DNA of 64,000 nucleotides. Source: Crossiella cryophila. Its GTDB lineage: Bacteria > Actinomycetota > Actinomycetes > Mycobacteriales > Pseudonocardiaceae. Below the pieces are notes generated by a model. The model was not told the origin of the DNA. It did no database searches and worked only from the letters and a program-made list of their open reading frames with translations. The translations under genes and the position numbers were made by a program. Below are positions 9,164-48,537 of the stretch, piece after piece (the stretch's first letter is position 1; every line of letters begins with the position of its first letter). Location of the stretch: contig NZ_JACHMH010000001.1 of NCBI RefSeq assembly GCF_014204915.1, positions 3,431,001 to 3,495,000 of the forward strand, written 5' to 3'.

Positions 9164-9257
9164 GACCACCCCCGCCGGGCTCGCGGTTGTATGCGGTTTG
9201 AAGCCGTTCTGTATGCGCCGCTCGCAGGCTGGCGGCGCCGACAGGAGGGACGGAAGC

Positions 9258-10154: not shown

Positions 10155-10170
10155 GTCGGCGCAGGGCGGC

Positions 10171-10205
10171 GGCGGGCCTGTTACCGGTCTGATAACAGGC
10201 CCGCC
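10171..10205 (+). terminator. Stem-loop after the M23 peptidase gene
   Basis: GGCGGGCCTGTTA (10171-10183) and TAACAGGCCCGCC (10193-10205) form a perfect 13-bp stem with a 9-nt loop, 16 bp after the stop codon. No long T-run follows, which is usual in high-GC actinomycete terminators. Confidence 0.75.
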
Positions 10206-10316
10206 ACCTGCGGCGACACCCTCGGTCTAGATAACTCCGCCCCGATGGCCGCTTGTTGGTGAGTTTTGCACCGAGATACGTTCTTGGTGTTCTGCTCGCT
10301 ATTCGAGGGGGCTTCG

Positions 10317-12761
10317 GTGACTCCACGGACCATCCCGGCTGTTCAGAGCTGGGCAGCCAGTGACGGCAGGTACCGGTTCGGTCCAGGGAGCACGATCCTG
10401 GTGGACCCGGCAGCCGCGGCCGAGCTGACCGCGGACGCGAACACCTTCGCCGCCGACCTCGGCCTGCTGCTGGAGACCGCGCCGCCCAAGGTGCGCACCG
10501 CGGCCGCCGCCGAGGCCAGGGACGGGGACCTGGTGCTCGGGCTCGGCGCGACCGACCCGCAGCTGGGCGAGGAGGGCTACCAGCTGGAGATCGGGCCGGT
10601 GCTGCGGCTGCACGCCCGGCGCAGGCTCGGCGTCTTCTGGGGCAGCCGGACGGTGCTGCAGCTGCTGCACGGCACCGCGGGGGAGTCGATCGCGGGCGGG
10701 CGGATCCGGGACTGGCCGCGCTACACCGTGCGCGGCGCGCTGCTGTGCAACGCCACCAAGCACTACGACCTGACCTGGTGGACCAACCAGATCCGGGACC
10801 TGGCCTACCTCAAGTACAACGAGCTGGTCATCTACGTCGACGGGGTGGGGCTGACCCGGCCGGAGCTGGAACACATCGCCCGGCTCAGCGAGCAGTACCA
10901 CGTCACCGTGCTGCCACAGCTGAACATGCCGGGCCACATGGACCAGGTGCTGCCGCCGCACCGCCAGTACCAGCTGCGCCACCCCAACGGCGAGTACCGG
11001 CACAACGCGCTGGACATCAGCAACGACGCCGCCCGCGAGTGGGCCTTCGGGCTGATCGAGCAGTACCTGCCGCTGTTCCCCGGACCGGTGTGGCACTTCG
11101 GCGCGGACGAGTACCCGGCCTGGGCCGGTGGCATCGACGACTTCCCGCAGCTGGCCGCCTACGCCCGCCGCCGCTACGGCGCGCAGGCCAACGGCTGGGA
11201 CGCCTTCAACGGCTTCATCAACGACGGCGCGGAGCGGATCCGCAGGCACGGCAAGCAGATCCGCATCTGGAGCGATATGCAGCGCACGCACGCGCGGGTG
11301 GTGCGGGTGGAGCCGAGCACGGTGATCGAACACTGGACCTCGGACCGGGAAGGGCTGCTGCCGGTCCAGGAACTCATCAACCGCGGGCACAAACTGGTCA
11401 ACGGCAACGACCAGTTCCTCTACTACAACGGCGGCCGCAACCCCGATGGCAGCCAGCGCAAGAAGACCGACGCGCGGCGGATCTACGAGCAGTTCCGGCC
11501 AGGGGACATGCACGGCGGCCAGGACCTGCCGGAGGATCATCCGGCGCTGCTGGGCATCCGGTTCTGCCAGTGGAACGACCTGCCGGTGGAACAGCTGGAA
11601 AGCAGTCAGGCCACCGAACTCGCCATGTTCGACACCCTGCGCGCGATCGCCCAGCACGCCTGGGGCTCGCCCAAGCCGAGTGCGAACTGGTCCGGGTTCA
11701 AGCCGGTGGTGGACAACGTCGGCCGGGCGCCCGGCTATGTGCCGCCGCTGACCGTGCCGCACGGGCACGGACCGGGTGCGGCCAGGGACGGCTACGAGGT
11801 GGTCACCTTCTTCGCGCCGAGGGCCGACGGCAAGGTCGAACACGGCTGGCAGCACCACCCCGGGCACGGTCCGTGGGCGCGCACCGCGTTCGGCGGCCGG
11901 TTCGGCGGCGGCATCGCGGGCAACACCCCGGTGATCCTGGACGTCTACGGCAGGCTCACCTACCTCGCCCGCACCAACTCAGGTTCGCTGGAATGCGGCA
12001 GGCAGCCCGCACCCGGCTCGGGCCCGTGGACCGACTTCACCGAACTGCCGGTCAAGGTGCTCGGCGACCCGGCACTGGCCCTGGATGTCCAGGGGCGCCT
12101 GACCTTCGTGGCCCGCGCGGCCGAGGGCGGCCTGCTGCTGGGCCGGGAACGCACCCCCGGCTTCGGCGAATGGGAGTTCACCCGCCTGCAGATCGACGCC
12201 CAGGGCGACCCGGCCCTGGTGCTGGACAAGGACAAACACCCCTGCTTCGCCGTGCGCACCGGCGGCAACCGCCTGCTGCTGGGCCGCCGCGAACGCCCCA
12301 GTTCCAGCAACTGGCAGTACAGCACCTTCGCCGCCGACGTCGCGGGCGATCCGGCCCTGGTGCTGGACAAGGACCGCCGACTCGTCGCGTCGGCGCGCAC
12401 CACCAACGGGCGGCTGGTCATCGCGGTGCAGAACGGAAATGCCTGGGACACCAGGCAGATCAGCGGCGAGGTGGCAGGCGAGGTGGCACTCGCCCTGCAA
12501 CCCGACGGCAGGCTGACCTTCTTCGTGCGCGACGGCGAGGGCCACATCCAGCACGGCTGGCAGAACCAGCCCGGCTCGGCCGAGTGGACCGAGGCCGACC
12601 TGGGCGGCGCGATCACCAGCGAGGTCAGCGCGTTGCAGGACCACGTGGGCAGGCTGCTGGTGTTCGCGCGCAACACCGCGGGGCGGATGTGGCACGGCTG
12701 GCAGGACAGTCCGGGGCAGGGTCCGTGGGAGTTCGCGGAGCTGAGCAGCGGGCTGCGCTGA
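10317..12761 (+). CDS. GH20-like beta-N-acetylhexosaminidase fused to a C-terminal lectin-type beta-propeller
   Basis: An 814-residue protein. The GTG at 10317 is preferred because GAGGGGG lies just upstream; an ATG 51 bp earlier lacks a ribosome-binding site. Residues 1-125 resemble the GH20b domain. Residues about 130-460 form the barrel, with the catalytic Asp-Glu pair in WHFGADEYPAW (Asp264-Glu265), as in N-acetylhexosaminidases using substrate-assisted catalysis. The last ~300 residues carry six or more repeats of about 45 residues (GDPALVLDKDKHPCFAVRT type, with recurring HGWQ), like PLL/tectonin sugar-binding propellers. No signal peptide is visible, which is unusual for a lectin-tethered hydrolase. 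The linkage cleaved is not known. Confidence 0.82.
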   Translation: MTPRTIPAVQSWAASDGRYRFGPGSTILVDPAAAAELTADANTFAADLGLLLETAPPKVRTAAAAEARDGDLVLGLGATDPQLGEEGYQLEIGPVLRLHARRRLGVFWGSRTVLQLLHGTAGESIAGGRIRDWPRYTVRGALLCNATKHYDLTWWTNQIRDLAYLKYNELVIYVDGVGLTRPELEHIARLSEQYHVTVLPQLNMPGHMDQVLPPHRQYQLRHPNGEYRHNALDISNDAAREWAFGLIEQYLPLFPGPVWHFGADEYPAWAGGIDDFPQLAAYARRRYGAQANGWDAFNGFINDGAERIRRHGKQIRIWSDMQRTHARVVRVEPSTVIEHWTSDREGLLPVQELINRGHKLVNGNDQFLYYNGGRNPDGSQRKKTDARRIYEQFRPGDMHGGQDLPEDHPALLGIRFCQWNDLPVEQLESSQATELAMFDTLRAIAQHAWGSPKPSANWSGFKPVVDNVGRAPGYVPPLTVPHGHGPGAARDGYEVVTFFAPRADGKVEHGWQHHPGHGPWARTAFGGRFGGGIAGNTPVILDVYGRLTYLARTNSGSLECGRQPAPGSGPWTDFTELPVKVLGDPALALDVQGRLTFVARAAEGGLLLGRERTPGFGEWEFTRLQIDAQGDPALVLDKDKHPCFAVRTGGNRLLLGRRERPSSSNWQYSTFAADVAGDPALVLDKDRRLVASARTTNGRLVIAVQNGNAWDTRQISGEVAGEVALALQPDGRLTFFVRDGEGHIQHGWQNQPGSAEWTEADLGGAITSEVSALQDHVGRLLVFARNTAGRMWHGWQDSPGQGPWEFAELSSGLR

Positions 12762-16593: not shown

Positions 16594-16905
16594 CGTACAA
16601 CAACGGCCAACACGAGGTACAAGAACGGCCAACACACCGTCCCAGAACGGCCAACACGCCGGGGAGGGGTTCGGGTTTGAACCCCCTCCGCGCGTGTTGG
16701 CCGTTGTCGTACCCAGTGTTGGCCGTTCTTGTACGCCGTGTTGGCCGTTGTTGTACGCCTTGGGCGATTGCGACCGGGCGAAGGCCGAGGACAGGCGGCC
16801 GGGGCCGGCCCCAGTGTGGCTCCAAGGGCTCGCGCCCCGTCCCGCAACGGCCAACGTGCCGTACAAGAACGGCCAACACACCGTACGAGAACGGCCAACA
16901 CGCCG
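16594..16905. repeat. 22-bp repeat cluster A (3 forward, 3 inverted, 3 forward units)
   Basis: This fills the gap between the convergent copper ATPase and GH114 genes. Core ACGGCCAACAC recurs every 22 bp: forward GGCCAACAC at 16605, 16627 and 16649; reverse GTGTTGGCC at 16694, 16716 and 16738; forward again at 16849 (degenerate), 16871 and 16893. Full units read ACGGCCAACAC-NNN-GTACAAGA. The first six can fold as one long hairpin about a GGGGAGGGGTTC / GAACCCCCTCC turn. About 90 bp separates the inverted block from the last block and is shared in part with cluster C. Open frames across it are by-products of the repeat. Confidence 0.9.
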
Positions 16906-16921
16906 GGGAGGGGTTAGAGAG

Positions 16922-17902
16922 TCAGCAGGGCCAGCGGGGGGCGTCCAGTTTGAGGTTCTTGCGCATGGAGCTGAGGTTGAGGCGGCGGCTGGTTGGGCAG
17001 AACTTGGCGTTGTCCACCTCGTACTCCGCGTGCAACACAGCCTTCCCCGCCCTGATGAACGGCGACAGCTTGTCGCACTCGTCGAACTCCGCGCACTGCT
17101 CGTTCACCGCGAAGTCGAACTCTCCCACCAACTGCGGGATCAACCCCAGCGCGTTCTTCAACCCGATGGACAGCCCCTTCCCGTGCGCCAGCTTGGCCAG
17201 CGCCCGGTTGTAGGCAAGCTGATCCTCGGCCGAGATCGAATGTCCGGTGTCATGCGTGTACGCGTCCACCAGATCCGCCTCGATCCCGTCGAAGCCCTTG
17301 TCCCGGCACACCTGGAACCGCTCGGCCATCACCGGCAGCAGCACGTCCAGCTTCCGCACGTCCAGCCACCGCTCACCCGGCCACCCGTTCTCCTTGCCGG
17401 TGGCACTGCGCAACCGGCCCGCATCGGCCCGGTAGTCCTCGCTGGCACCCGCGTTGACGTAGCAGATCACCTTGCTGCCCTTGGCCTGCAACGCCTGCAC
17501 CACCTCGCGACTGTTCTCCATCGCGTCGATGTCGTACACATCCACCTTCACCGAGGTGTCCACCGGCACGGTGAGCTGCCACTGCCAGGTCACCCCGGGC
17601 GTCGGCCGCCAGCGCTCCTTGGCGGCCGGTTGCTTCGAGGGTGGCGGGGGCGGCGGGGCGGACCCCGGCTCCGACGGTGGAGGAGCCGGGGTCCCCGTGC
17701 TGCCGGGCGGGGGTTCGGTCGTGGTGGGCCCGGTCGCCGAGGTCGCCGAGGAGGTGGCGGCCTCGTCCTCGGCGGCGCTGCCGTGGGTACAGCCGCTGAC
17801 GGCCAGCAGACCGGTCAGCAGCAGGGCTAGGAGACCCGTCGTGGGCCGCAGCGGCCCACGGCAAGCGTTTGCCGGTTGAAATGCCCCGCCAGTCGTCGCC
17901 AC
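16922..17902 (-). CDS. GH114-family lipoprotein (endo-alpha-1,4-polygalactosaminidase-like, Ega3-like)
   Basis: A 326-residue lipoprotein. The GTG at 17902 is preferred: GGAG lies 7 bp upstream and it gives a hydrophobic stretch LLALLLTGLLAVSGC with lipobox Cys38. It lies inside the end of the preceding spherulin gene (76-bp overlap), so coupled translation is likely. A Thr/Pro-rich spacer (about 45-95) leads to the catalytic barrel: DVYDIDAMENS, VICYVNAGASEDYRAD, FDGIEADLVDAYTHD and NEQCAEFDEC. GH114 enzymes cleave alpha-1,4-galactosaminan; Aspergillus Ega3 acts on galactosaminogalactan. It is the last gene of the exopolysaccharide operon, probably trimming polymer at the outer face of the membrane. 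The start is less certain than the family. Confidence 0.82.
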   Translation of the reverse strand: MATTGGAFQPANACRGPLRPTTGLLALLLTGLLAVSGCTHGSAAEDEAATSSATSATGPTTTEPPPGSTGTPAPPPSEPGSAPPPPPPSKQPAAKERWRPTPGVTWQWQLTVPVDTSVKVDVYDIDAMENSREVVQALQAKGSKVICYVNAGASEDYRADAGRLRSATGKENGWPGERWLDVRKLDVLLPVMAERFQVCRDKGFDGIEADLVDAYTHDTGHSISAEDQLAYNRALAKLAHGKGLSIGLKNALGLIPQLVGEFDFAVNEQCAEFDECDKLSPFIRAGKAVLHAEYEVDNAKFCPTSRRLNLSSMRKNLKLDAPRWPC

Positions 17903-18549
17903 GGGTTCGCTCCGTCCAGGTCGGTCACGTACACCGCGCCCGCGTTGAACCGCGAGGCGCGCTGCAACGTCCGTTCGGTTTCCGCGCGCGGTGTGCCGTA
18001 GACCAGGTGGCAGAACCGCTGTGCGGGCAGGCCGTAGGCCCAGGCAGGCACCTTGAGGTTCTCGTGCTCGCGCAGCCTGCCCTCGAAGGTCACCAGCAGG
18101 TCGGCCAGTTTGGCGTACCCGTAGGCCGGGTAGACGCCGTGGTTGAACACCACCGTGCGCGCGCCCATACCGCGGGCGGCCGCGGCCAGGCCGCGGTACT
18201 GCGGCAGGTGCTCGGCATCGGCCGAGACCTGGTCGAAGAACACCCCGTCCACCCGGTACCAGGCGTGGTAGCGGGCGATCTGACGCTGCACCAGCTCCCG
18301 CGAGCAGCGCCCGTACCCGGTGTCCACGTAGCCCATCACCGGGATGCCTGCCAGCTTGAGCCGCTGCACCACGGCGCTGAACATGATCTCTTTCGCCAGC
18401 CCTGGGCCGCTGTCGATGTTGAGGATCACCATGCGCAGGTAGTCGGCGGCGTTCACCAGCGTCTGCCAGTCGGCCGGGGCGGCCGAGGGGTGGAAGTAGG
18501 CTGGAACCGCGAGTAGCCCGCGGTCCGGTTCCAGGGTCATGTGCGGCAT
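17827..18549 (-). CDS. Spherulin-4 family protein (Sph3/GH135-like glycosidase)
   Basis: A 240-residue protein. The start at 18549 has an excellent ribosome-binding site (AGGAGG, 5 bp spacing) and overlaps the upstream epimerase gene by 13 bp; an internal ATG at 18540 is weaker. Sequence landmarks of the spherulation-specific family 4 fold are LLAVPAYFHPS, MVILNIDSGPG, VMGYVDTGYG, VDGVFFDQVSAD and VFNHGVYPAYGY, a TIM barrel with acidic residues at strand ends. The fungal member Sph3 hydrolyses galactosaminogalactan and is needed to make it. No signal peptide or membrane segment is seen, so it would be cytoplasmic, or exported by an unrecognised route. Its place between the sugar-nucleotide genes and the GH114 lipoprotein supports a role in polymer processing. 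Confidence 0.85.
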   Translation of the reverse strand: MPHMTLEPDRGLLAVPAYFHPSAAPADWQTLVNAADYLRMVILNIDSGPGLAKEIMFSAVVQRLKLAGIPVMGYVDTGYGRCSRELVQRQIARYHAWYRVDGVFFDQVSADAEHLPQYRGLAAAARGMGARTVVFNHGVYPAYGYAKLADLLVTFEGRLREHENLKVPAWAYGLPAQRFCHLVYGTPRAETERTLQRASRFNAGAVYVTDLDGANPWRRLAGHFNRQTLAVGRCGPRRVS

Positions 18550-19454
18550 TGCGCCTCCTGCCAGAGGTCCGATAGCGAGGTGGCCAAGTCGATGGCGGGC
18601 CGCCAGTCGAGGGCCTTCCCGATCGCACTGATCTCGGCCTGCTGCCAGGGCACCTCCGCTGACCGCGCGGAACCTGAGTCAGCCTGCCCGATCGGGCCGG
18701 TGTAGCCGGCTATCCCGGTGAGCGCCTTGGCCAGCTCGCCCACTGTGATGCCCTCTCCACTGCCGACATTGAGCACGGGCTCATCGATGACGGGCGCGAA
18801 AGCCGCGGCATGCACTGCCTCGGCGACGTCCCTGACGTCGATGAAGTCCCGCACCGCGGAGAGCGGGCCGAGCCGGACCTCGTCGCCCTCCGCTTGGGCC
18901 CGAAGCAGCTCCTGGGCCAGCCGTCCGGCGACGTTGCCGGGCGGTGAACCGGGGCCGATCGGGTTGAACACCCGCAGTACCACGGCATCCAGGCCTGCCA
19001 CGCGGGCAAGGCAGACCAACCGGGTGGCGGCCAGTTTGGTGATCCCGTAGACGCCGACCGGTCTGGTCGGAGTCTGCTCGGTGACCGGCTCGCCCGTCAC
19101 CACTCTGCCGTATTCCGCAGCCGAACCGAGATGCACCAGACGCAATCGTTCGGGTCCGCACAGGGCGGCCCGGACCAGCGCGGCAGGCAGATCAATGTTG
19201 GCGGCGGCCAGATCGGCGGGATTCCCGCCGACCGCACCGGCACAGTTGACGACGACATCGGGGGCGGTCTGCGCGAGCAATCCGCCGATAGCAGCAGAAC
19301 CTTCGGCCGTCAGGTCGATCCTGACGTGCCAGGGCGAGGAGGGCAGCGCCCCGCGTGCGGCCGTCACGACCTCCAGGTCACCGCGCCTGAGCAGCCGGTG
19401 GAGGACGTGCCGGCCGATGAAGCCGGTCGCGCCGAGCAACAACACGCGGGGCAC
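18537..19454 (-). CDS. NAD-dependent sugar-nucleotide epimerase/dehydratase (extended SDR)
   Basis: A 305-residue extended SDR. The GTG at 19454 is chosen for its GAGGAGAA ribosome-binding site; it begins VPRVLLLGATGFIGRH, the Rossmann GxxGxxG at residues 8-14. The catalytic pattern is Ser in HLGSAAEYG and Tyr-x3-Lys in YGITK, with RDFIDVRDVA near the sugar-binding lobe. Substrate cannot be told from sequence: a 4-epimerase or a reductase acting on a keto sugar are both possible. It lies in the exopolysaccharide operon 110 bp after the nucleotidyltransferase, and probably completes the activated sugar precursor. Confidence 0.85.
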   Translation of the reverse strand: MPRVLLLGATGFIGRHVLHRLLRRGDLEVVTAARGALPSSPWHVRIDLTAEGSAAIGGLLAQTAPDVVVNCAGAVGGNPADLAAANIDLPAALVRAALCGPERLRLVHLGSAAEYGRVVTGEPVTEQTPTRPVGVYGITKLAATRLVCLARVAGLDAVVLRVFNPIGPGSPPGNVAGRLAQELLRAQAEGDEVRLGPLSAVRDFIDVRDVAEAVHAAAFAPVIDEPVLNVGSGEGITVGELAKALTGIAGYTGPIGQADSGSARSAEVPWQQAEISAIGKALDWRPAIDLATSLSDLWQEAQCRT

Positions 19455-19564
19455 TGCGTTCTCCTCACGATCATGGTTTGTTGTCTGTCTATTGTGGATG
19501 GACATTGTGGACGGTGTGGGTGACGGCGGACGGCGGGTCGGTCGTCACCGGGGAAACCGTTACC

Positions 19565-20311
19565 TCAGGCGGATGCCTTCAGCGGTGGGTGCTGCAGCGG
19601 GGTGTCCTTGAGCAGGCTGTGCCGCAGCACCGGGAACTCGGCGTTGGCCCGGTCGTAGTCGTCCGGACGGCCGATGTCGAGCCAGTAGCCGTTGAACTCA
19701 TACGAGCTGGGCGGGGTGTCGGTCTTGAGCAGGTCCAGCACCAGCTCGTCGAAACCGAGCGGCAGGCCAGGGGTGTACCCGCGCAGCGCCTCCCGGCTGA
19801 CCCCGTAGACGCCCATGCTGACCCGGTAGTCCAGGGTCGGCTTCTCGGTGAACTCGACGATCTTGCCTTCGTCCGCGGTCAGCACGCCGAAGTCGATCTT
19901 CACCTGACGCTCGTAGGTGGCCACGGTCAGCGGCGCGTTCTCGCTGCTGTGCCTGGCCAGCAGCGCGCCGTAGTCCAGGTCGGTGAGCACGTCCCCGTTC
20001 ATCACCAGGAAGTGCTCGGGCAGCGAGTCCAGCAGCTGCACCACCGGGCCGATGGTGCCCAGCGGGTTGTCCTCCTCTGCGTAGTCCACCGCCATGCCCC
20101 ACTTGCTGCCGTCGCCGACATAGGAGCGGATCAGGTCGCCCAGGTATCCGATGGCCAGGGTGGCGCTGCGGAAACCGCTGTGCGCCAGCTGGGTCATCAC
20201 GATGTCCAGGATGGAGAACTCGTCGCCGATGGGGACCAGCGGTTTGGGCAGGCAGGTCGTGTACGGACGCAGTCGGACGCCCTTGCCACCGGCCAGGATG
20301 ATCGCGTGCAT
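19565..20311 (-). CDS. Sugar-1-phosphate nucleotidyltransferase
   Basis: A 248-residue protein. The ATG at 20311 begins MHAIILAGGKGVRLRPYT, the nucleotide-binding signature LAGGxGxRLxPxT; upstream in-frame sequence belongs to the previous gene. Other landmarks are LPKPLVPIGD, VMNGDVLTDLDY (metal-binding Asp), VEFTEKPTL and GYWLDIGRPDDY. The family activates sugar-1-phosphates with GTP, CTP, UTP or dTTP. Its partner next door resembles LegB, and LegB acts on a GDP-activated sugar, which favours guanylyltransfer here, but this is inference. It sits 32 bp after the dehydratase gene. Confidence 0.87.
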   Translation of the reverse strand: MHAIILAGGKGVRLRPYTTCLPKPLVPIGDEFSILDIVMTQLAHSGFRSATLAIGYLGDLIRSYVGDGSKWGMAVDYAEEDNPLGTIGPVVQLLDSLPEHFLVMNGDVLTDLDYGALLARHSSENAPLTVATYERQVKIDFGVLTADEGKIVEFTEKPTLDYRVSMGVYGVSREALRGYTPGLPLGFDELVLDLLKTDTPPSSYEFNGYWLDIGRPDDYDRANAEFPVLRHSLLKDTPLQHPPLKASA

Positions 20312-20343
20312 CGTTGCCCCTTGTTGTCTGTCGCTGTGGTTGA

Positions 20344-21339
20344 TCACTGGGTGTAGATGCCGGGCTTGTAGTGCGCGAGGTTGGCCGGTTCCCGGAACCA
20401 CTCGATGGTCTCGGCCAGGCCCTCGTCCCTGCTGTACGCCGGTGCCCAGCCGGTGCGCTCGCGCAGCTTCGCCGCATCGCACACCAGTCGCTGCACCTCG
20501 GAGTTCTTCGGGCGGATCCGCTGGGCGTCCTCGGTGATGTCGGCCTGCACGCCCATCACCCGCGCGATGTCCGCGGCGAGCTGGCCGACCGAGACCTCCT
20601 CGCCGGTGCCCGCGTTGAACAGTTCGCCGACCACGGCCGAGGCGGGCGCGGTGCCCAGGGTGTGGAAGGCGGCCGCGGTGTCCTTGACGTAGAGGAAGTC
20701 GCGGGTCGGGTCGAGCGCGCCCAGCTTCAGCTCGGTGGCCCCGGCGGCGAGCTGGCTCACCACGGTCGGGATCACCGCGCGGGCGGACTGGCGCGGCCCG
20801 AAGGTGTTGAACGGCCGCAGGGTCACCGCGGGCACGTCGAAGCTGAGGTGGTAGGACTCCACCATCTTGTCCGCGCCGATCTTGGACGCGGCGTAGGGGG
20901 ACTGGCCCTGCAGCGGGTGCGCCTCGCTGATCGGCACGGTCAGCGCGGTGCCGTAGGTCTCGCTGGTGGAGGTGTGCACCAGGCGCGGGGTCTGCTCGGC
21001 GCGGACCGCGTCCAGGATGTTCAGCGTGCCGATCACGTTGGTGTCCACATAGGACCGCGGTGCCCGGTAGGAGTAGGGGATCGCGATCAGCGCGGCCAGG
21101 TGGTAGACGGCCTCGGCGCCCTCCACCAGTTCACGGGCGCTGGCCTGGTCGCGGACATCGCCCAGGACCACGTCGACCTGGTCCATCACCTCGGCGGGCA
21201 GCGAGTCCAGCCAGCCCCAGGAGCTGAAGGAGTTGTAGAGCACCATCGCGCGCACCCGGTGGCCGTGTGCGACCAGTCGCTCGACCAGGTGGGAGCCGAT
21301 GAAGCCCTCGGCGCCGGTGACGGCGACGACGTTGGACAC
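20344..21339 (-). CDS. NAD-dependent sugar-nucleotide 4,6-dehydratase, LegB-like extended SDR
   Basis: A 331-residue SDR beginning at a GTG behind AGAGGAAC. The Rossmann motif is TGAEGFIGSH; the active site is STSETYG with YAASK. The segment YNSFSSWGWLDSLP after the first strand is distinctive of the LegB group (GDP-GlcNAc 4,6-dehydratase of the legionaminic-acid route), which I recognise from memory rather than from alignment. The product would be a 4-keto-6-deoxy amino sugar. With the adjacent nucleotidyltransferase and second SDR it forms a three-gene sugar-activation unit inside the exopolysaccharide operon. A plain 4-epimerase role cannot be excluded. Confidence 0.82.
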   Translation of the reverse strand: MSNVVAVTGAEGFIGSHLVERLVAHGHRVRAMVLYNSFSSWGWLDSLPAEVMDQVDVVLGDVRDQASARELVEGAEAVYHLAALIAIPYSYRAPRSYVDTNVIGTLNILDAVRAEQTPRLVHTSTSETYGTALTVPISEAHPLQGQSPYAASKIGADKMVESYHLSFDVPAVTLRPFNTFGPRQSARAVIPTVVSQLAAGATELKLGALDPTRDFLYVKDTAAAFHTLGTAPASAVVGELFNAGTGEEVSVGQLAADIARVMGVQADITEDAQRIRPKNSEVQRLVCDAAKLRERTGWAPAYSRDEGLAETIEWFREPANLAHYKPGIYTQ

Positions 21340-21372
21340 GGTGTTCCTCTTTCTTCTGGGGGACTTCGGGTT

Positions 21373-22830
21373 TCAGCGGTGACGGACCGCGCTGCCGAGC
21401 GAGAGCGCCGCGTGGCAGTAGAGAACGAGAAGCAGAGCGAGCCCGACGGCGAGCTGCACCCACACCGTGCCCAGCGGCCAGCGCAGCGCCCCACCGGTGA
21501 GGGTGAAGGCGACCTCCACGGCCAGGGCCGCGCCGCAGGCGATCAGGGCGATGGTGTTGAGCCCCAGCGCCTGCACCAGCAGGGCCAGGAAGAGCGCGCC
21601 ACCGAGGGCGAGGTAGGCGGCGTAGGTGGGGACCGCGGCCGGGATGGCTCCTGGCACGGTGAACAGCACCACGGCGCACAGCGCGGCCGCGGCGATGAGG
21701 TAGCGGGTCAGCACCCCGGTGAGCACGAACCGCGAGCGCAGCGCGAAGCTGGCCAGCGTGGTGCTCTCCCGCAGCAGGCGGCCCATCCGCCTGCGGTAGC
21801 CGAACAGGCACCATTCGGCGAAGCCCATGCTCAGCGACACCGGCAGCGCGGCCAGCGCGGCGCCGGGGATGTCCGGGGCCGAGGGCAGCACCGCCCACAC
21901 CACGGGCAGCGCGAGCAGTCCGGCCGCGCACAGCCCGAACAGCGCGTGCGGCAACGCGTTGCGCAGTTCGGTCCAGTTCGGTCTGGCCTTGGCCCGCACC
22001 GGTTTCCCGGTCCGGGTGCGCCACACCGCGAAGCCCACGGTGAGCAGCACCGAGCCGATCAGGCCGAGCAGTTCGGCCCAGTGCGGCAGGAACCGGTGCC
22101 CGCCAAGCAGATGCAGGCCACCGGCCAGCACCGCGGGCGCCAGGGCCAGCAGCAGCAACAGTTCCGCGCCGCGCACCAGCAGCACGGTGGCGGCCAGCAG
22201 GTAGATGCCCTGCCCGACACCCAATGCCAGCACGGACCAGCCAGCGTCACTGAACCAGGCCAGCCCGGCCGAGGCAAGTGCCACCAGGGTGCCGCAGAAG
22301 AACAATCCGTTGCGCAGCACCGAATAGGCGGCGTCGGCGCGGCCGAGGCCGAGGCGGACGTAGCCGAGGTAGGACAGGCCCTGGCTCATCGTCCAGGACA
22401 GCACCAGCGAGCCGACCAGGACCGCCAGCGCGGCGGGCCGCACCAGCAGCGGGGTGGCCGCGGTGTAACCCAGGCCGGGCAGGGCGAAGAGCACCCCGCG
22501 CAGCAGGTGCAGTTTCGGGTTGGCCGCCCAGACCTCGGGCAGCGGGGCCGGTTCGGCCGGCGCCCTCGGCACCAGCCGGAACAGCTCCTCGGCCAGCGCG
22601 AAGACGTCCGGGCAACCGTAGCGGGCCTTGACCGCCTGGTCGGACAGCCCGTCGGCCTCCAACCCAGCCGCGACCTCCAGTGGGTCGACGGCGTTGGCGC
22701 ACAACGACTCGAACCGGTGCGCCAGTTCACGTAACCGCGGCGGGATGTCCAGGGTGCGGACGTCCGGCAGTGTCTCCGGCCCGCCGAGCACCCCGATCGG
22801 CTCCAGCTCGGGCACCGTGCCCGCGCTCAT
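21373..22830 (-). CDS. PelG-like polytopic membrane protein (exopolysaccharide transporter)
   Basis: A 485-residue protein. The ATG at 22830 overlaps the stop of the glycosyltransferase gene by 4 bp (ATGA), typical translational coupling; the frame is open far upstream but only as a shadow of that gene. The first ~135 residues are soluble and helical. They are followed by 11-12 hydrophobic segments (for example LRGVLFALPGLGYTAATPLL, AALAVLVGSLVLSW, TVLLVRGAELLLLLALAPAV, VWVQLAVGLALLLVLYCHAA). PelG is the MOP-like inner-membrane partner of PelF in Pel polysaccharide export. Similarity at the primary level is weak by eye, so the call rests on topology, size and being coupled to a PelF-like gene. 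Confidence 0.75.
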   Translation of the reverse strand: MSAGTVPELEPIGVLGGPETLPDVRTLDIPPRLRELAHRFESLCANAVDPLEVAAGLEADGLSDQAVKARYGCPDVFALAEELFRLVPRAPAEPAPLPEVWAANPKLHLLRGVLFALPGLGYTAATPLLVRPAALAVLVGSLVLSWTMSQGLSYLGYVRLGLGRADAAYSVLRNGLFFCGTLVALASAGLAWFSDAGWSVLALGVGQGIYLLAATVLLVRGAELLLLLALAPAVLAGGLHLLGGHRFLPHWAELLGLIGSVLLTVGFAVWRTRTGKPVRAKARPNWTELRNALPHALFGLCAAGLLALPVVWAVLPSAPDIPGAALAALPVSLSMGFAEWCLFGYRRRMGRLLRESTTLASFALRSRFVLTGVLTRYLIAAAALCAVVLFTVPGAIPAAVPTYAAYLALGGALFLALLVQALGLNTIALIACGAALAVEVAFTLTGGALRWPLGTVWVQLAVGLALLLVLYCHAALSLGSAVRHR

Positions 22831-24275
22831 GACGCGGCCGCCGGCAGTCGCCGGGACCGCTCGGTCACCACGCCGAGCCCGGTGTACAGCTCGTCGAAGG
22901 TGCCGACGGCCTTGTCCACGGTGAACAGTTCGAGCGCCCGGTGCCGGGCCGCGGCGGCCATCGCGTGCCGCAGGTCCCGATCGGCCAGCAGCTCGACGCA
23001 CGCCTTGGCCATGGCGGCCGGATCCCTTGGCGGCACCACGATCCCGGTGTCGCCAACGGCTTCCGGCACCCCGCCGACATCGGTGGCCACGCACGCGCGG
23101 CCGACCGTCATCGCCTCGATCAGGGTGTAGGGGAAGCCCTCGGAGATGCTGGAGAGCACCACCACGTGCCCGGCCACGTAGGCGTCCCTGATGTCGTCCA
23201 CCCGGCCCTCGAACACCACGCTGTCGCCGACCCCGAGGCTGGCCGCGAGTTCCTTGCAGCGGTTGGCATAGCCCTCGCCACCCTTGGGGGTGCCGCCGAA
23301 CAGGCGCAGCCGCACGTCCGGCACCTCCTTGCGCACCAGCGCGAACGCCTTGATCAACGTCTCCAGGTCCTTGATCGGGTCGACCCGGCCAGCCCAGCTC
23401 AGCGTGGGCGTCTCGGGTTCGGCCTCGACCGCGGGGAAGTCCGCCGGGTCGACGCCGTTGTAGACGGTGCGGATGAGAGCGGAGTCGGTGCCCAGCCGTT
23501 CCTCCCAGCGCTTGTTGTAGATGTTGCCGGGCGCCACCAGCGCCGCGGTGCGGTAGGCCAGTTCGCACACCTGCCGGAAGAAGGCCAGGTGCAGTGCCTT
23601 GACCGGGTGCCGGTAGGGCGAGTTGCGGTAGCCCAGGTAGCGCTCCCGCAGGTAGATCCCGTGCTCGGTGAGCAGCAGCGGGGTCTGGTGGCACCAGTTC
23701 GCGGTGAGCGCGGGCAGCGCGGCCAGTCCGTTGGCCACGCAGTGCGAGACATCGGCGAGGATGGGTGGCGCGGCGAGCGGCCGGAGCGAGTGCTCCAGCA
23801 GCTCGACCGCGGTCACCGCGTCGGCCACGGTCGGCGGTTTGCCCAGGTTCTCGGGCCAGTCCCGCCAGGCGTCCATCATCGCCCGCACCGCGTCCTCATC
23901 GCGCAGGCTGGCCGAGAGGTCAGCGAGCTGGGCGTACTCGAACAGGCGGCGCAGCACCGTGGTGAAGCGCGCCTCCTTGTCCGGCAGCCCGGCCACCGTG
24001 AGGGTGGCCAGCAGCTCGCGGAACAGCTCACCGAAGCCGCGCAGGGCCTTGCGGCCCGGCCTGCGGCCGTGGTGCTCCGCGCCCCACAACGGGATCAGCG
24101 TCAGCGAGGCCACGTTCTCCGGCAGTTCCCAAGCGGTGGGCTCCTGTCCGGTGGAGACCAGCGCCACGAGGTGGAAGTTGTGTTGCGGCAGCCCGCGTAC
24201 GAGCTGGTCGCACCACACGCTCACCCCGCCGAAACTGTGCGGGTAGGTGCCCTCGGTCATCAGCGCGACGTCCAT
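22827..24275 (-). CDS. PelF-like GT4 glycosyltransferase (DUF3492 plus GT4)
   Basis: A 482-residue cytoplasmic glycosyltransferase. It opens with MDVALMTEGTYPHSFGGVSVWCDQ, the PelF/DUF3492 N-terminal signature in which the activated-sugar synthase fold begins with TEGTYP and GGVS. The C-terminal GT4 half has VYNGVDPADFP, LSWAGRVDPIKDLETLIKAF and ISEGFPYTLIEAMTVG with the E-x7-E pattern. PelF polymerises UDP-N-acetylhexosamine into an alpha-1,4-linked chain in Pel; here it is the best candidate polymerase. The start is 5 bp after the deacetylase stop, and the end overlaps the PelG-like gene, so all three are co-transcribed. Confidence 0.9.
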   Translation of the reverse strand: MDVALMTEGTYPHSFGGVSVWCDQLVRGLPQHNFHLVALVSTGQEPTAWELPENVASLTLIPLWGAEHHGRRPGRKALRGFGELFRELLATLTVAGLPDKEARFTTVLRRLFEYAQLADLSASLRDEDAVRAMMDAWRDWPENLGKPPTVADAVTAVELLEHSLRPLAAPPILADVSHCVANGLAALPALTANWCHQTPLLLTEHGIYLRERYLGYRNSPYRHPVKALHLAFFRQVCELAYRTAALVAPGNIYNKRWEERLGTDSALIRTVYNGVDPADFPAVEAEPETPTLSWAGRVDPIKDLETLIKAFALVRKEVPDVRLRLFGGTPKGGEGYANRCKELAASLGVGDSVVFEGRVDDIRDAYVAGHVVVLSSISEGFPYTLIEAMTVGRACVATDVGGVPEAVGDTGIVVPPRDPAAMAKACVELLADRDLRHAMAAAARHRALELFTVDKAVGTFDELYTGLGVVTERSRRLPAAAS

Positions 24276-24280
24276 CGGAG

Positions 24281-26344
24281 TCAGGCCGGCAGCACGAGGG
24301 TGAAGGCGCCACCGGTGCTGCGCCGCCAGTCCGAACGCTCACCGGCGTAGACCTGGCCCCACAACGGACCCTGGATCAGGCCGCCGAGCAGACCCGGCGT
24401 GCGGGTGCCCTCCGGGACCGTGATCGGCACGTCGACCCCGCTGGGTGCGGAGGTGTGCACGCGGCCGTTGAGGATGTAGCCGGAGACCTTGCCCGCGGCG
24501 ACCTGGGCCCGCCAGTTGTTCTGCCGCTGCATCACGGTGCCCGCCTCGGACAGCCGCGGGTTCACGATCGGCGCGTTGGCGGCGAAGGCGTTGCGGTAGC
24601 CGGCGAGCATGCCCTCGACCATCGGGTAGAGCAGCCGGTCCTCGGCGATGTTGGACTGGTGGGCGTACTGCGGGCGGGCGTCGTTGCCGAGGATGAAGCG
24701 CATGCCGAGCCGGATCTGGGTGGGCACGATGTAGGAGTCGAACCCGTTGGCGCCCAAGGGCTGGATGCAGGTGGTGGTGTGCGGGTTGTCCTCGCAGATG
24801 CCGGAACCGCCGTTGGCGCGGGAGGTGTAGATCCAGTTGTACTCGTCGGTCATCTCCGCGCGGGTGCCCACGTTGTAGTACACCGAGATCGGGTAGCGCG
24901 GCACGCCCTGGGCGGTGCCCACCTGACGCAGCCCCGGTTCGCGGGAGGCGTCCAGGCCGATCCAGGTCACGCCGGTCTGGCGCAGCGCGGCGACGAAGTT
25001 CGGGTTGTCCTGGCCCTGCTGCGGCAGGATCTTGGTGCCCGAGTGCTCACCGGCGAGCATCTCGTTGCGCTGCAACGCGAGGCCCTTCTGGGTGCCCCAC
25101 TGGTAGTTCTTGTTGATCTCGGTGACGATGTCGGCCTGCGGCAGCCACTTCACCGTGCCGTCCGGGTTGGTCGCGCACTTCCACGGCACCACGGTGGTGT
25201 CCTGCACGCAGCCGAGGAACTTGTGCGAGTAGGTGTGGTTGGCCCAGCGGAACTGGCCCTTGTTCTGCAGCAGCGCGGTGGTCAGCGGGTCCGAGCCCTG
25301 GGCGGCGATGACCTCGTCGCTGCCGAAGGCGTTGAAGTACATGTCCAGCTTGAAGTTGTTCTGCTGCTGCCACTGCACGACCTTGGTGACATCGGCAGGC
25401 GTCATCCGGATCGCGGGCAGCTCGGGCACCTCGCCCTGGCAGTCGATGTCGCCGGGGGTGCAGTTGTGCACGGCGTCCCAGCGCGCGTCGCCGTCGAAGA
25501 CGTCGTCGATGTGCACGCTCAGGTACGAGCGGTGGTGCCCGAAGTGGATCCCCTTGGTGAGCCAGCTGATCAGCCCGTGCTGGAGGATCTTGAACTGGGT
25601 CTGCTCGGCGTTGTAGGCGAAGTTGAAGGTGAGCTGCTCGCGGGTGCCCTGCTTGAGCACCCCGGCCAGCACGCCCTGCTGCGCGCCGTCGGGGGAGACG
25701 CCGGTCAGGAAGGGCTGGAAGCTGGTGCCCGCGGCGGGGTCGTCCGGCAGCGGGTTGGTGAGGTAGCCGTATGCCTCCCACACCGCGGGGTCGCCGTTCT
25801 CCACCGGCACCGGCCCCCGCAGGTTGCGGAAGGCCCCGCCCAGCGCCGTCGCGGTGAGCTGGGTGGTGGTGCCGTCGAGCTGACCGGCGTAGTGCGGGGT
25901 GTTCATGCCCACCCGCGTGTTGGGGTAGGTGAAGGCGTTGACCTGGCGGACCCCGAACTTGGCCTCGTAGGCGGCCAGCGCGTCCAGTTCGGCCTGGGCG
26001 AGCCCGGCGGGCGCCTCGTTGGGCAGCACCACGGCCTGGAACTTCGCGCGAGGGGTGGAGTTGACGGTGTCGGAGAGGAAAGCGCTGGTGAGCACCGGGC
26101 GCTGGGCGTCGGCGAGCCGGACGACGGTGTTGGGCACACCCTCGTTGACCAGGGCCGAGCGGATCGCCTCGGCGGAGGAACCGCCGTCGGTGACGACGAG
26201 GACGTTGAGGTCGATCCGGGTGGGTGTGTCCGCGGCCGAGGCCACCGGGGTCATGCTGATCGTCAGCACGAACGCGGTGGCGGCCGCGGCCCGCAGCAAG
26301 ACAGGGCGAAGCACACGCAGAGATCTCACGAAAACCCCGTTCAT
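24281..26344 (-). CDS. Secreted CE18/Agd3-like polysaccharide deacetylase
   Basis: A 687-residue exported protein, first gene of the exopolysaccharide operon. The start is taken at ATG 26344 because it gives a signal peptide (VLRPVLLRAAAATAFVLTIS, cleavage near AASA around residue 38); GTG 26329 is an alternative. The N-terminal ~220 residues are a separate Rossmann-like domain (LNVLVVTDGGSS). The catalytic region has SVHIDDVFD (Asp280-Asp281) and ANHTYSH (His370, His374), an Asp-His-His metal site in the arrangement of carbohydrate esterase family 18. The founding member Agd3 deacetylates galactosaminogalactan in Aspergillus. A C-terminal beta-rich part (YILNGRVHTSAPSGV) may bind glycan. Family assignment is from motif recall. 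Confidence 0.8.
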   Translation of the reverse strand: MNGVFVRSLRVLRPVLLRAAAATAFVLTISMTPVASAADTPTRIDLNVLVVTDGGSSAEAIRSALVNEGVPNTVVRLADAQRPVLTSAFLSDTVNSTPRAKFQAVVLPNEAPAGLAQAELDALAAYEAKFGVRQVNAFTYPNTRVGMNTPHYAGQLDGTTTQLTATALGGAFRNLRGPVPVENGDPAVWEAYGYLTNPLPDDPAAGTSFQPFLTGVSPDGAQQGVLAGVLKQGTREQLTFNFAYNAEQTQFKILQHGLISWLTKGIHFGHHRSYLSVHIDDVFDGDARWDAVHNCTPGDIDCQGEVPELPAIRMTPADVTKVVQWQQQNNFKLDMYFNAFGSDEVIAAQGSDPLTTALLQNKGQFRWANHTYSHKFLGCVQDTTVVPWKCATNPDGTVKWLPQADIVTEINKNYQWGTQKGLALQRNEMLAGEHSGTKILPQQGQDNPNFVAALRQTGVTWIGLDASREPGLRQVGTAQGVPRYPISVYYNVGTRAEMTDEYNWIYTSRANGGSGICEDNPHTTTCIQPLGANGFDSYIVPTQIRLGMRFILGNDARPQYAHQSNIAEDRLLYPMVEGMLAGYRNAFAANAPIVNPRLSEAGTVMQRQNNWRAQVAAGKVSGYILNGRVHTSAPSGVDVPITVPEGTRTPGLLGGLIQGPLWGQVYAGERSDWRRSTGGAFTLVLPA

Positions 26345-27016: not shown

Positions 27017-28018
27017 CTACCGCCGCTTCGCCCGCGAGAGCAGCGTCTGCAGCACCACCACCACGACCAGGAACCCGCCGCTGACCACCAGCTGCATGCT
27101 GGAGTCGAAGCCGCCGACCTGGTTGATCACGTCCCGGATCACGAACAGCAGCGCCACCCCGGCCAGCGTGCCGCCGACCGAGCCCGCACCGCCCACCAGC
27201 AGGGTGCCGCCGATGACCACCGCGGCGATGGCGTCCAGTTCCAGGCCGACGCCGATCACGGTGACGCCGGAGCCGAGCTGGGCGGCGGAGAGGATGCCTG
27301 CCAGGCCGGCCAGTACGGCGGAGATCACGTACACGCTGACCTTGGTGCGGGCCACCGGCAGGCCCATCAGCGAGGAGGCGTCCTCGCTGCCGCCGATGGC
27401 GAACAGGCGCATGCCGAACCGGGTTCGTTGCAGCACCAGGCCGCCCAGCAGGTAGAGCACCAGCACGATCAGCACCGGGATGCCCAGGCCGAGGATCCGG
27501 CCCTGACCGAGTTCCAGGAAGGCGGTCTCGGTCTGCGGGACCAGGTAGGTCTGACTGCCCTCGGCGGTGAGGAACTGGAGCAGGCCCCTGGCGAAGAGCA
27601 GGCCGCCCAGGGTGACGATGAAGGCGGCCATCTTGGCCTTGCCGACGAGCAGGCCGTGCGCCAGGCCGATGGCGGCGCTGACCGCCAGTGGCAGCGCGAA
27701 CGCGCCCAGCAGGCCCCATTCCCTGGCGCCGTAGGCGGCCAGCACGCCGGAGAGGGCGTAGACCGAACCGACCGACAGGTCGATGCCGCCGGTGATGATC
27801 ACCATCGTCATGCCCAGCGCGATCACCGCCAGGAAACTGGCCTGCACGGCCAGGTTGCCCAGGTTGTAGGCGGTCAGGAAGGTGTCGAAGGCCAGGCCGC
27901 CGACGGCGAGCAGCACCGCGAGCACGATCAGCGCGCCGTGCCGCTGGACGAGCTGGGCCACCTGCTGGCCGCGGCGGTTCGCCTCGGCGGGCGCGGCGGT
28001 GGCGGGAGCCGTGGTCAT
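27017..28018 (-). CDS. Sugar ABC transporter permease, YjfF-like
   Basis: A 333-residue inner-membrane permease of the BPD_transp_2 (ribose/galactofuranose) family, with eight or more hydrophobic segments. Typical motifs are ITGGIDLSVGSVYALSGVL and LDAIAAVVIGGTLLVGGAGSVGGTLAG, the conserved Gly-rich loop that meets the ATPase. The start overlaps the upstream permease stop by 4 bp. In the E. coli galactofuranose system the order is binding protein YtfQ, ATPase YtfR, permease YtfT, permease YjfF, and this operon has the same order, so this is the second permease. Confidence 0.88.
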   Translation of the reverse strand: MTTAPATAAPAEANRRGQQVAQLVQRHGALIVLAVLLAVGGLAFDTFLTAYNLGNLAVQASFLAVIALGMTMVIITGGIDLSVGSVYALSGVLAAYGAREWGLLGAFALPLAVSAAIGLAHGLLVGKAKMAAFIVTLGGLLFARGLLQFLTAEGSQTYLVPQTETAFLELGQGRILGLGIPVLIVLVLYLLGGLVLQRTRFGMRLFAIGGSEDASSLMGLPVARTKVSVYVISAVLAGLAGILSAAQLGSGVTVIGVGLELDAIAAVVIGGTLLVGGAGSVGGTLAGVALLFVIRDVINQVGGFDSSMQLVVSGGFLVVVVVLQTLLSRAKRR

Positions 28019-28970
28019 CGCGAACCGTTCCCTTCACGCTGCACCAGCACCGCGGCCGCGATGATCAGTGCCTGGGCCATCTGCGCCAGCGAGGCCGACA
28101 CATCGTTCTTGATCAGCGTGGCCGTGATGAGCTGCATCAGCGCCGCCCCGGCCACCGTGCCCAGGATGCGTACCCGGCCGCCGGTCAACGGGGTGCCGCC
28201 GACCACCACCGCGGTGATCGCGGCCAGTTCGATCAGCTCGCCCAGCCGGGACGGGTCGCTCGCGGCCAGCCGCGAGGTGGCCAGCACACCGGCGATCGCG
28301 GCCAGCACACCGCTGATCACGTACACCGTGAGCAGCACCCGCTTGACCGGCAGCCCGGCGAACGCGGCCGCCTTCGGGTTGCCGCCCACCGCCACCAGTT
28401 GCCGCCCGAAGGTGGTCCTGGCCACCAGCAGGCCGACCAGCACCGCCAGCAGCGCGGCGATCAGCACTGTGTACGGCACGCCAAGCACCGAACCCGAGCC
28501 CAGCTCACGCAGTTCCGGGTTGCGGATGTCCTTGAGCTGCCCGCCCGCGATCACCAGTGCCAGCCCGCGGCCGCCGACCAGCAACGCCAGCGTGGCCACG
28601 ATCGGCTGCACACCGACAAAAGCCACCAGGTAGCCGCTGACCAGCCCGGCCGCCGCGCCGGCCAGCAGGCACACGCCCACCGACAGCCCGGCGCCGTAAC
28701 CCAGGTAGAGCGGCAGCAGCGCGCTGGTGATGGCCATCACCGAGCCGACCGACAGGTCGACGCCCTTGGTGCCGATCACCAGCGCCATGCCGAGCGCGAT
28801 GATCAGCGTTGGCACCATCTGCACGGCCTGGGTGCGCAGGTTGTCCGCGGTGAGGAAGTTGTCCGTGAGGACCAGGTTCACCAGGAACAGCAGGCCCAGC
28901 GCGAAGTACACGCCGTAGTCCCGGACCAGCCCGATCGTGCTGGACCGGGCAGGAGCGGCGGTGGCCGTTG

Positions 28971-28974
<4 letters not shown>
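28015..28974 (-). CDS. Sugar ABC transporter permease, YtfT-like
   Basis: A 319-residue permease of the same family as the next gene. Motifs are IGTKGVDLSVGSVMAITSAL near the N-terminus and ITAVVVGGTPLTGGRVRILG in the ATPase-contact loop. Start and stop both overlap neighbours by 4 bp (ATGA), so it is translationally coupled to the ATPase before it and the second permease after it. Two different permeases plus one ATPase would form a heterodimeric channel, as in YtfT/YjfF. Confidence 0.88.
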
Positions 28975-30516
<1,542 letters not shown>

Positions 30517-30527
<11 letters not shown>

Positions 30528-31599
30528 CGTTGACCTCTGCCTTGGCGTTGGCCTCGTCGTAGGCCTTGTCCGAGATGATGATCTTCTCCGGGATCGCCTC
30601 ACCGGCCAGGTACTTCTGGATGGTGGCGAAGGCCAGCGGGCCGAACCGCGGGTTGGACTCGATCACGCCGTTGACGTTGCCGTCCACGATGGCCTGCACC
30701 GCGTTCCGGGTGCCGTCCACCGAGATGATCTTGATGTCCTTGCCGGGGGTCTTGCCTGCCGCGCGGACCGCGGTGATCGCGCCGAGCGCCATCTCGTCGT
30801 TCTCCGCGTAGATCGCGTTGATCTCCGGCTTGGACTGCAGCAGCTGCTCGGTGACGGTCTGGCCCTTCTCCCGGGAGAAGTCGCCGGTCTGCTCGGCCAC
30901 CACGGTGATCCCGGCGGTGCCCTTGACCGCGTCCTTGAAGCCGTTGGTGCGGTCGGTGGTGACGTTGTTGCCGGAGGAGCCCAGCAGGATGGCCACCTTG
31001 GCGCTGCCGCCGGTCACCTTGATCATCGACTCACCGGCGCGCTTGCCCTGGTCGACGAAGTCCGAGCCGATGAAGGCCAGGTAGTCCACGCACGGCTTGG
31101 CGGCGTTGAGCTTGCGGTCCACGGTGAGCACCGGGACCTTCTTCTCCCGCGCGGCACGCAGGGCAGGCTCCAGGCCATCGGAGTTCAGCGGCGCCACGAT
31201 CAGCAGCTGGGCGCCCTGGGCGAGCATGGACTGGATGTCCGAGATCTGCTTGCCGAGGTCGGAGTTGGAGTTGGTGGTCAGCAGCTGCTTGACCCCGACC
31301 TTCGCCGCCTCCGCCTTGATCGAGGCGGTTTCGGCGATACGGAACGGGTTCGCCTCCTTCTCCGACTGGGAGAAGCCGACGATCGCGTTCTTCAGGTCGA
31401 TCTTCGGCGTGCCGTAGGCGTCGATCTTGCAGGTGGTTCCGCCGTCCGGCTGCGCCGACTTGGTCACCTGCTCACCACCGCCACTGGTGGCGCCGGGGTT
31501 GCCGGAGTTCTCCGGGTTCGCGCAGCCGGCCAGCACAAGTGCGGCCGCCGCGGCGAGCACCGCGCCGGACTTGAGGGATCGAACCTGCAAAGCAGTCAT
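30517..31599 (-). CDS. Sugar-binding lipoprotein, YtfQ-like (galactofuranose-type)
   Basis: A 360-residue lipoprotein (signal ending LAAAAALVLAGC, lipobox Cys about residue 26). It is a Peripla_BP_4 protein with IVGFSQSEKEANPFRIAET at the ligand face, LIVAPLNSDGLEPALRAA, and DGTRNAVQAIVDGNVNGVIE with ESNPRFGPLAF near the C-terminus. These segments recall E. coli YtfQ, which binds galactofuranose; ribose-type RbsB proteins are shorter and lack the second motif. It leads the ABC operon 106 bp downstream of a DeoR regulator in the same orientation. True ligand unproven. Confidence 0.85.
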
Positions 31600-48307: not shown

Positions 48308-48375
48308 CCATAGGCGATTGCGTGCGGGCGGAGCCCGGGGACGGGCGGCCGGGGTGGCTTTTCAACACTCCCCGA

Positions 48376-48528: not shown

Positions 48529-48537
48529 ACGAGCACT

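Follow-up and report, generated by a model that had tools for sequence, protein, structure and literature searches.

A variant of the bacterial Agd3-type polysaccharide operon in Crossiella cryophila with its own nucleotide-sugar module

We analysed a stretch of 64,000 nucleotides of the Crossiella cryophila genome (RefSeq assembly GCF_014204915.1, contig NZ_JACHMH010000001.1, positions 3,431,001 to 3,495,000; hereafter the window) and describe an operon of eight intact minus-strand open reading frames that runs from 26344 to 16922. The operon belongs to the published class of bacterial Agd3 operons, and is a variant with a nucleotide-sugar module of its own. Very probably it makes a polymer. 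We propose that it feeds a 6-deoxy-N-acetylhexosamine into a cationic polymer resembling galactosaminogalactan (GAG) and Pel, a chemistry that we infer from the genes and to which we give about an even chance of being correct.

A preliminary description, made from the letters of the window, gave eight minus-strand genes with spacings of 5, -4, 33, 32, 110, -13 and -76 bp in gene order, and our recount agrees exactly; the polymerase and membrane protein genes thus overlap by 4 bp. The assignments are listed in Table 1, in which P0004 to P0006, a dehydratase, a nucleotidyltransferase (NT) and a second short-chain dehydrogenase/reductase (SDR2), make up the module.

Table 1. The eight genes of the operon, with positions in the window.
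Protein	Assignment	Position	Strand	Remarks
P0001	CE18/CBM87 (Agd3-type) polysaccharide de-N-acetylase	24281..26344	-	687 aa; signal-like N-terminus by eye
P0002	PelF-type GT4 glycosyltransferase (polymerase)	22827..24275	-	482 aa; DUF3492 and NCBIfam PelF equivalog
P0003	12-helix MOP-fold membrane protein, presumed polymer exporter	21373..22830	-	N-terminal part of ~100 residues
P0004	LegB-type NDP-N-acetylglucosamine 4,6-dehydratase	20344..21339	-	331 aa; GTG start; profile and TSE signature
P0005	Sugar-1-phosphate nucleotidyltransferase (NT)	19565..20311	-	248 aa; NTP_transferase profile
P0006	Second SDR (SDR2), candidate 4-keto reductase	18537..19454	-	305 aa; GTG start; Epimerase profile
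P0007	GH135 / spherulin-4 enzyme	17827..18549	-	240 aa; no signal peptide, predicted cytosolic
P0008	GH114 endo-alpha-1,4-polygalactosaminidase-like lipoprotein	16922..17902	-	326 aa; GTG start; lipobox LAVSGC by eye

By profile affinity and motifs we class P0004 as a LegB-type 4,6-dehydratase and not as a candidate epimerase. It is 50.3% identical to Campylobacter jejuni LegB over 98%, and its LegB score is three times that obtained with the galE model (144.8 bits). It carries the motifs TSTSE, invariant in 11/11 aligned rows, and YxxxK, with S126 and E127 as acid/base residues, and the TSE signature recurs in the annotated LegB proteins of C. jejuni, Azospirillum, Rhizobium and Mesorhizobium. 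A review table in PMC8987622 assigns the signature [ST]SE..YxxxK to GDP-mannose 4,6-dehydratase and lists GalE without an extra acid/base residue; the substrate of C. jejuni LegB is given as GDP-GlcNAc (PMC7439481). P0005 matches the NTP_transferase profile with 129.5 bits, and its best PDB match is a mannose-1-phosphate guanyltransferase beta (E 1.4e-26). P0006 has the motifs GSAAEYG and YGITK, scores 142.9 bits with Pfam Epimerase and 74.3 bits with galE (cut-off 262.3), and has as its best PDB match 2pk3, a GDP-6-deoxy-D-lyxo-4-hexulose reductase (E 1.4e-22), which is a clue to a 4-keto reductase role, not proof of it. In the three LegB neighbourhoods outside such operons that were opened with their flanks (Azospirillum, Rhizobium and Mesorhizobium) an aminotransferase gene comes next after LegB; in the present operon a reductase-like SDR is linked to the LegB-type gene, and no aminotransferase follows it.

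The linkage of the module to Agd3 operons was examined across 199 genomes from the genus of genome G474, which we take to be Streptomyces because G421, sharing its genus code, clusters with named Streptomyces in a tree of PelF proteins. Relatives of P0001 occur in 87 of these genomes at E 1e-60 (105 places). LegB genes of at least 67% identity number 47, well separated from the next class, which is at 55%, and 40 of the 47 follow a same-strand Agd3 gene at a distance of 3080-4390 bp, against a roughly estimated chance expectation of ~0.02. Twenty of the 47 regions were opened (16 linked, 4 unlinked) and 18 have LegB, NT and SDR2 in this order, including 15 of the 16 linked ones. Among the seven unlinked LegB genes, three are no more than 0.8 kb from a contig start, and the other four are those opened (L155-L158). 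Three of these four have PelF, membrane protein, LegB, NT, SDR2 and spherulin genes, an Agd3 gene being recognised only in L158; PelF and NT were not recognised in L157. One further locus, L088, is not in this tabulation of module order, as its LegB gene lies outside its stretch.

The same arrangement extends beyond this genus. The module sits between the membrane protein and spherulin genes in Crossiella, Lentzea and Streptomyces, and follows PelF and the membrane protein on plasmids of another phylum, in Deinococcus aquaticus, D. ficus and Deinococcus sp. QL22. Relatives of P0004 at 1e-60 are found in 22 plasmid records; the eight at or above 60% identity are on four Streptomyces californicus and four Deinococcus plasmids, all of which also hold a P0001 relative. 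The complete eight-gene order is present on an S. californicus plasmid as well, and one Thermus and one Kocuria plasmid are annotated without the module. Because gene order holds across genera and two phyla, and given the excess of LegB linkage, we reject chance as an explanation.

Another set of 58 related loci was fetched with octapeptides of P0001 (Crossiella, Streptomyces, Lentzea, Microtetraspora) and is biased by the query patterns; the closest named relatives are from Crossiella, with P0001 identities of 94% and 87%. Fifty loci extend 5 kb or more past Agd3; in these, PelF and the membrane protein each follow in 50/50, spherulin in 49/50 and GH114 in 42/50. The core order Agd3, PelF, membrane protein, spherulin, GH114 is kept in this set. 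The complete eight-gene order was seen in 4/50 (L007, L008, L011 and L022, an extra SDR match in L008 being taken as a cross-match), and since the query biased this set we first overestimated the rarity of the module; in the genus survey, 40 of the 105 Agd3 places have a close LegB. The operon is not general at higher ranks, with a P0001 relative in 3/298 genomes of the order (1e-10, own genome included) and 9/296 of the phylum (1e-8).

A PelF tree built by a quick method from 76 loci, less three that were dropped (L024, L054, L061), groups 52 rows that showed no module in one supported clade, with the module rows L118 and L125 as its sister. This fits a single loss of the module in the 52-row clade, with other readings open: long branches (L130, L115, L124 and others) make placement unsure, and short-contig rows such as L096, where the state of the module is not visible, were counted as core.

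Two other arrangements came to light among these loci. L091 (3235-13767; another genus of the same order), and also L090 and L084, have a sister operon of CE18, PelF, membrane protein, NT and SDR2 genes, followed in L091 by a UDP-sugar dehydrogenase, another SDR and a short GH114-like protein that scores below cut-off. In L124 (5735-14803), a mobilizable plasmid of Kocuria rosea, the five-gene core is flanked by two oppositely oriented copies of one annotated transposase, and for this reason may move as a composite transposon.

Among the four proteins identified by family as CE18, PelF, spherulin-4 and GH114, P0001 has the weakest identity by profile. It passes the cut-off of Pfam CBM87_Agd3 (27.7 against 27.6 bits), and its sole match in a PDB sequence search is Agd3 itself (6nwz, E 2.6e-7). 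Agd3 has four described catalytic motifs, CM1 to CM4 (DD, HxxxH, Arg and His; PMC7229062), and P0001 has D280/D281, H370/H374, R483 and H562, invariant across 20 aligned rows. By counting (offset 122), CM1, CM3 and CM4 fall on Agd3 D377/D378, R613 and H668; the aspartate pair is within the significant alignment to 6nwz, R483 and H562 are in stretches that score only about 0-1 bits, and the HxxxH of CM2 is placed by motif alone. A tyrosine occupies the position of Agd3 M666. A low-confidence model of P0001 (pLDDT 65.8) was compared using Foldseek, of which only the top matches were used; the first is again 6nwz (E 1.4e-20, TM 0.35), and the next is the human heparan sulfate N-deacetylase-sulfotransferase. 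From motifs, CBM87 profile and top structure match we assign P0001 as an Agd3-type deacetylase, as had been suggested from the letters. The cut-off of Agd3_CE, the catalytic-domain profile, is passed by distant relatives in L091, L092 and L113 and by one of two in L126. In the latter, a plasmid of Deinococcus aquaticus (6719-11281), two Agd3-type genes lie in tandem in one operon, the second scoring just under that cut-off.

The identification of P0002 as a PelF-like GT4 enzyme is borne out by the NCBIfam PelF equivalog (175 bits against a cut-off of 100) and by DUF3492 (182.6 bits). Its partner P0003 had been described as a PelG-like transporter, which holds for the general type of fold and not for the family. 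P0003 has no Pfam or NCBIfam match, the PelG profile PF16933 matches 0/16 members of its family, and PelG was likewise not matched in four distant membrane proteins from sister operons or in those of a G582 locus, Deinococcus, Kocuria and S. californicus. A search of the C. cryophila genome found no PelG, and profile-profile comparison (hhalign) of the P0003 family with seven PelG sequences gave a probability of 0.2%; by sequence, P0003 is not a PelG. The predicted fold of P0003 is that of a MOP transporter (MATE/Wzx/MurJ) with 12 helices, the fold alignment omitting L009, the frame of which looks broken. True PelG proteins are encoded in actinobacterial L113 (475.3 bits) and in the genome of L114 (459 bits), where they sit between PelF and the CE18 gene, so that the P0003-type protein occupies the PelG slot by position and not by homology. 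We note that L113 (3993-13139) and L114, with PelF, true PelG and the CE18 gene in a row, combine a Pel-type exporter with an Agd3-type deacetylase; spherulin-4 is on the opposite strand in both, and in L113, where it was tested, a GAF-GGDEF protein is encoded upstream of the row.

The last two genes encode hydrolase-type proteins. P0007 scores 122.1 bits with Spherulin4 (cut-off 30.2) and matches 5c5g with E 1.4e-7 by sequence and E 7.6e-22 by profile; its catalytic D106 and E156 are invariant in 25 rows, and in the bacterial rows read, Q or R replaces the fungal Glu beside the catalytic Asp. P0007 has no in-frame start upstream in the window, and in several loci the open frame of its relatives starts fewer than 20 residues before the barrel. 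Since this leaves no room for a signal peptide, the bacterial GH135 enzyme probably acts in the cytosol on a nascent or stalled chain. The spherulin of L092, unlike P0007, has a signal-like N-terminal sequence. P0008 matches GH114 with 259.3 bits (cut-off 27) and Ega3 (6oj1) with E 2.3e-50, and by counting, its D210 and E268 align with D189/E247, the catalytic residues of Ega3 (PMC12054363). With their catalytic Asp and Glu, and the lipobox of P0008, both agree with what was first read from the sequence. Matches to CE18-, GH135- and GH114-type proteins were thus obtained for all three enzymes, Agd3_CE alone remaining below its cut-off.

From the observed gene identities, motifs, fold type, conserved order and linkage we infer the substrates, the direction of action and the polymer itself, and propose the following route. 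The NT would activate an amino sugar, to GDP- or UDP-GlcNAc by analogy with legionaminate pathways, and the LegB-type enzyme would convert this to a 4-keto-6-deoxy sugar. SDR2, in place of the aminotransferase LegC, would then reduce C4 to give a nucleoside diphosphate (NDP)-6-deoxy-N-acetylhexosamine, either QuiNAc or FucNAc (6-deoxy-GlcNAc and 6-deoxy-GalNAc, respectively) as the NDP sugar. That the module makes such a donor seems to us somewhat better than evenly supported; that the sugar enters the present polymer could go either way. The PelF-type enzyme would polymerise the 6-deoxy donor, either by itself or together with UDP-GalNAc made by the chromosomal GalE, and the coupled MOP-fold protein would be moving the chain across the single membrane. 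Outside, the CE18 enzyme would strip part of the N-acetyl groups to leave a cationic chain, and we consider deacetylation of the polymer by this enzyme likely. The GH114 lipoprotein may trim deacetylated stretches, and the GH135 enzyme, which lacks a signal peptide, would work in the cytosol on nascent or stalled chains.

Several observations weigh against this proposal. The catalytic domain of P0001 scores 15.6 bits with Agd3_CE, below its cut-off of 27.6, and P0004 reaches 453.5 bits with NCBIfam LegB (TIGR04180), below its cut-off of 475. A reductase role of SDR2 is not universal, since the Deinococcus grandis operon has LegB and NT and no SDR2, L142 carries another SDR in its place, and SDR2 of L085 and L091 has His for the Lys of YxxxK. 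The NT is not exclusive to Agd3 operons, as close relatives occur without them: 17/298 genomes of the order have one and only 3 of these 17 have a P0001 match (1e-10), and the other loci opened include ones with a distant CE18 gene (L090-L093) and ones with no CE18 gene among those called (L085, L087, L094). As many as 65 of the 105 Agd3 places lack a close LegB within 6 kb (an upper bound, some being on short contigs), and therefore the polymerase family does not need the module. Module-type rows do not form one clade in the PelF tree (5 changes), and one CE18 gene, of Burkholderia stagnalis, has no PelF among its annotated neighbours. With regard to chemistry, GH114, GH135 and CE18 enzymes are known for polymers of N-acetylgalactosamine (GalNAc) and galactosamine (GalN), and here would have to act on a 6-deoxy chain; a GDP sugar would also be ill suited to a polymerase like that of Pel, which is modelled as using UDP-GalNAc (PMC7112168).

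Such points lend themselves to other explanations. The 6-deoxy sugar could decorate or cap the chain, or a lipid or protein anchor, with a main chain of GalNAc/GalN supplied through the chromosomal GalE. The presence of the module in only part of the Agd3 operons, the identical core gene families of both operon types and the grouping of LegB, SDR2 and NT relatives in L085, a locus without a called CE18 gene, are all in keeping with this. We nevertheless think it fairly unlikely, as the operon has no second glycosyltransferase to add a side sugar, and where a genome has Agd3 loci of both kinds, two separate polymers are a better fit than a single decorated one. Seventeen genomes hold the module operon together with another Agd3 gene (an upper bound, owing to short contigs), as expected if the products of the two loci differ.

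Unlikely, too, is a plain GAG- or Pel-like operon with a GalNAc/GalN polymer, in which the two SDRs are 4-epimerases in the role of Uge3, a role that the preliminary description had allowed them. The families of the polymerase, the deacetylase and the two hydrolases are all known from GAG and Pel, P0004 does have its galE score, and Agd3 operons without a close LegB are common. Yet acid/base residues such as S126 and E127 of P0004 appear in the table of PMC8987622 under dehydratases and are absent there for GalE, the affinity of P0004 is to LegB, P0006 is far below the galE cut-off, and epimerisation of UDP-GlcNAc needs no nucleotidyltransferase. As P0004 is of dehydratase type and a GalE scoring over its cut-off is encoded elsewhere in the genome, a role for the SDRs as Uge3-type epimerases is not supported. 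Least probable by far is a scavenging locus that degrades fungal GAG or bacterial Pel, suggested by two glycoside hydrolase families and an ATP-binding cassette (ABC) transporter-like gene set next door (27017-30602, by eye) that would import the sugars, given that the polymerase and MOP-fold protein genes overlap in mid-operon and the GH135 enzyme has no signal peptide.

If the 6-deoxy proposal is right, an operon common in antibiotic-producing soil bacteria yields a cationic matrix polymer with a sugar unlike those of Pel and GAG, and provides a direct, testable tie between a nucleotide-sugar module and polymer chemistry, for which naturally occurring genomes that have or lack the module are available for comparison. 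It would also offer new CE18, GH114 and GH135 enzymes, possibly with different specificity against biofilm polymers. More tentatively, and on balance we would not yet expect it, there may be a second branch of the GAG/Pel polymers in Actinomycetota and Deinococcota, partly deacetylated cationic poly-FucNAc or poly-QuiNAc from LegB-module operons, in which case some Streptomyces with both operons could make two cationic matrix polymers.

The source genome is a single contig of 10.06 Mb. On the 5' side of the operon the nearest same-strand gene, an ABC permease by eye, ends at 27017, 672 bp away, and on the 3' side a plus-strand gene, a P-type ATPase by eye, ends at 16574. Neither a promoter scan nor an Rfam search was informative about the operon; 2 terminator-like sites were found against 4.2 expected. 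Repeats of 22 nt around AACGGCCAACAC are grouped in blocks, with their orientation alternating, at 16594-16915, 35476-35655 and 48266-49070 of the window. The first block, flanked by convergent genes, is able to fold into long hairpins, with 79-nt arms that are 85% complementary and an RNA fold z of -13. Against 0 expected, the window holds 15 copies of the two-unit pattern; the whole genome holds 627, of which 308 are forward and 319 reverse, and the reversed control gave 0. This is an abundant repetitive extragenic palindromic (REP)-like element. An Rfam ASpks match (74.8 bits, gathering threshold 52) lies at 62767-62835 on the minus strand, inside a region of very long open reading frames at 51-64 kb.

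The operon class itself is not new, contrary to the first impression. Bamford et al. (2020; PMC7229062, section 13) placed agd3 genes of bacteria in operons that also encode a glycosyltransferase, a multi-span membrane protein and GH114 and, for some in Actinobacteria, spherulin-4, and named Deinococcus-Thermus homologs; the set of glycosyltransferase, membrane protein, CE18, GH114 and spherulin-4 is the same as here. Section 13 makes no mention of a dehydratase, nucleotidyltransferase or SDR module, and Fig. 8c may show one. In the running text of the open-licence literature we found no report of a LegB module in Agd3 operons, its linkage, two such loci per genome or a cytosolic GH135. With the legionaminic acid pathway, as described in the text of PMC7439481, the operon shares a LegB-type dehydratase beside a nucleotidyltransferase, and differs in having a second SDR and no LegC aminotransferase or nonulosonate synthase among its eight genes. 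The Gram-positive operon pelDEADAFG (text of PMC7112168) likewise has a PelF-type GT4, after which comes a multi-helix exporter candidate, and it too includes a deacetylase; in the present operon the exporter is not PelG by sequence, the deacetylase is CE18, and Pfam and NCBIfam found no match to PelD, PelE or PelADA among the eight proteins, which were the extent of the PelD and PelE search. The likeness to the fungal GAG cluster (uge3, gtb3, agd3, ega3 and sph3; text of PMC4817252) stands, in that both have CE18, GH114 and GH135 families and a glycosyltransferase. The present operon differs in lacking a Uge3-type epimerase, in having a separate membrane protein beside the glycosyltransferase where Gtb3 is described as a putative transmembrane glycosyltransferase, and in a GH135 enzyme without a signal peptide where fungal Sph3 is membrane-bound and cleaves on the outer side (PMC12054363). 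Should the 6-deoxy proposal hold, the operon would also bear on the published idea of a bacterial origin for the fungal GAG cluster.

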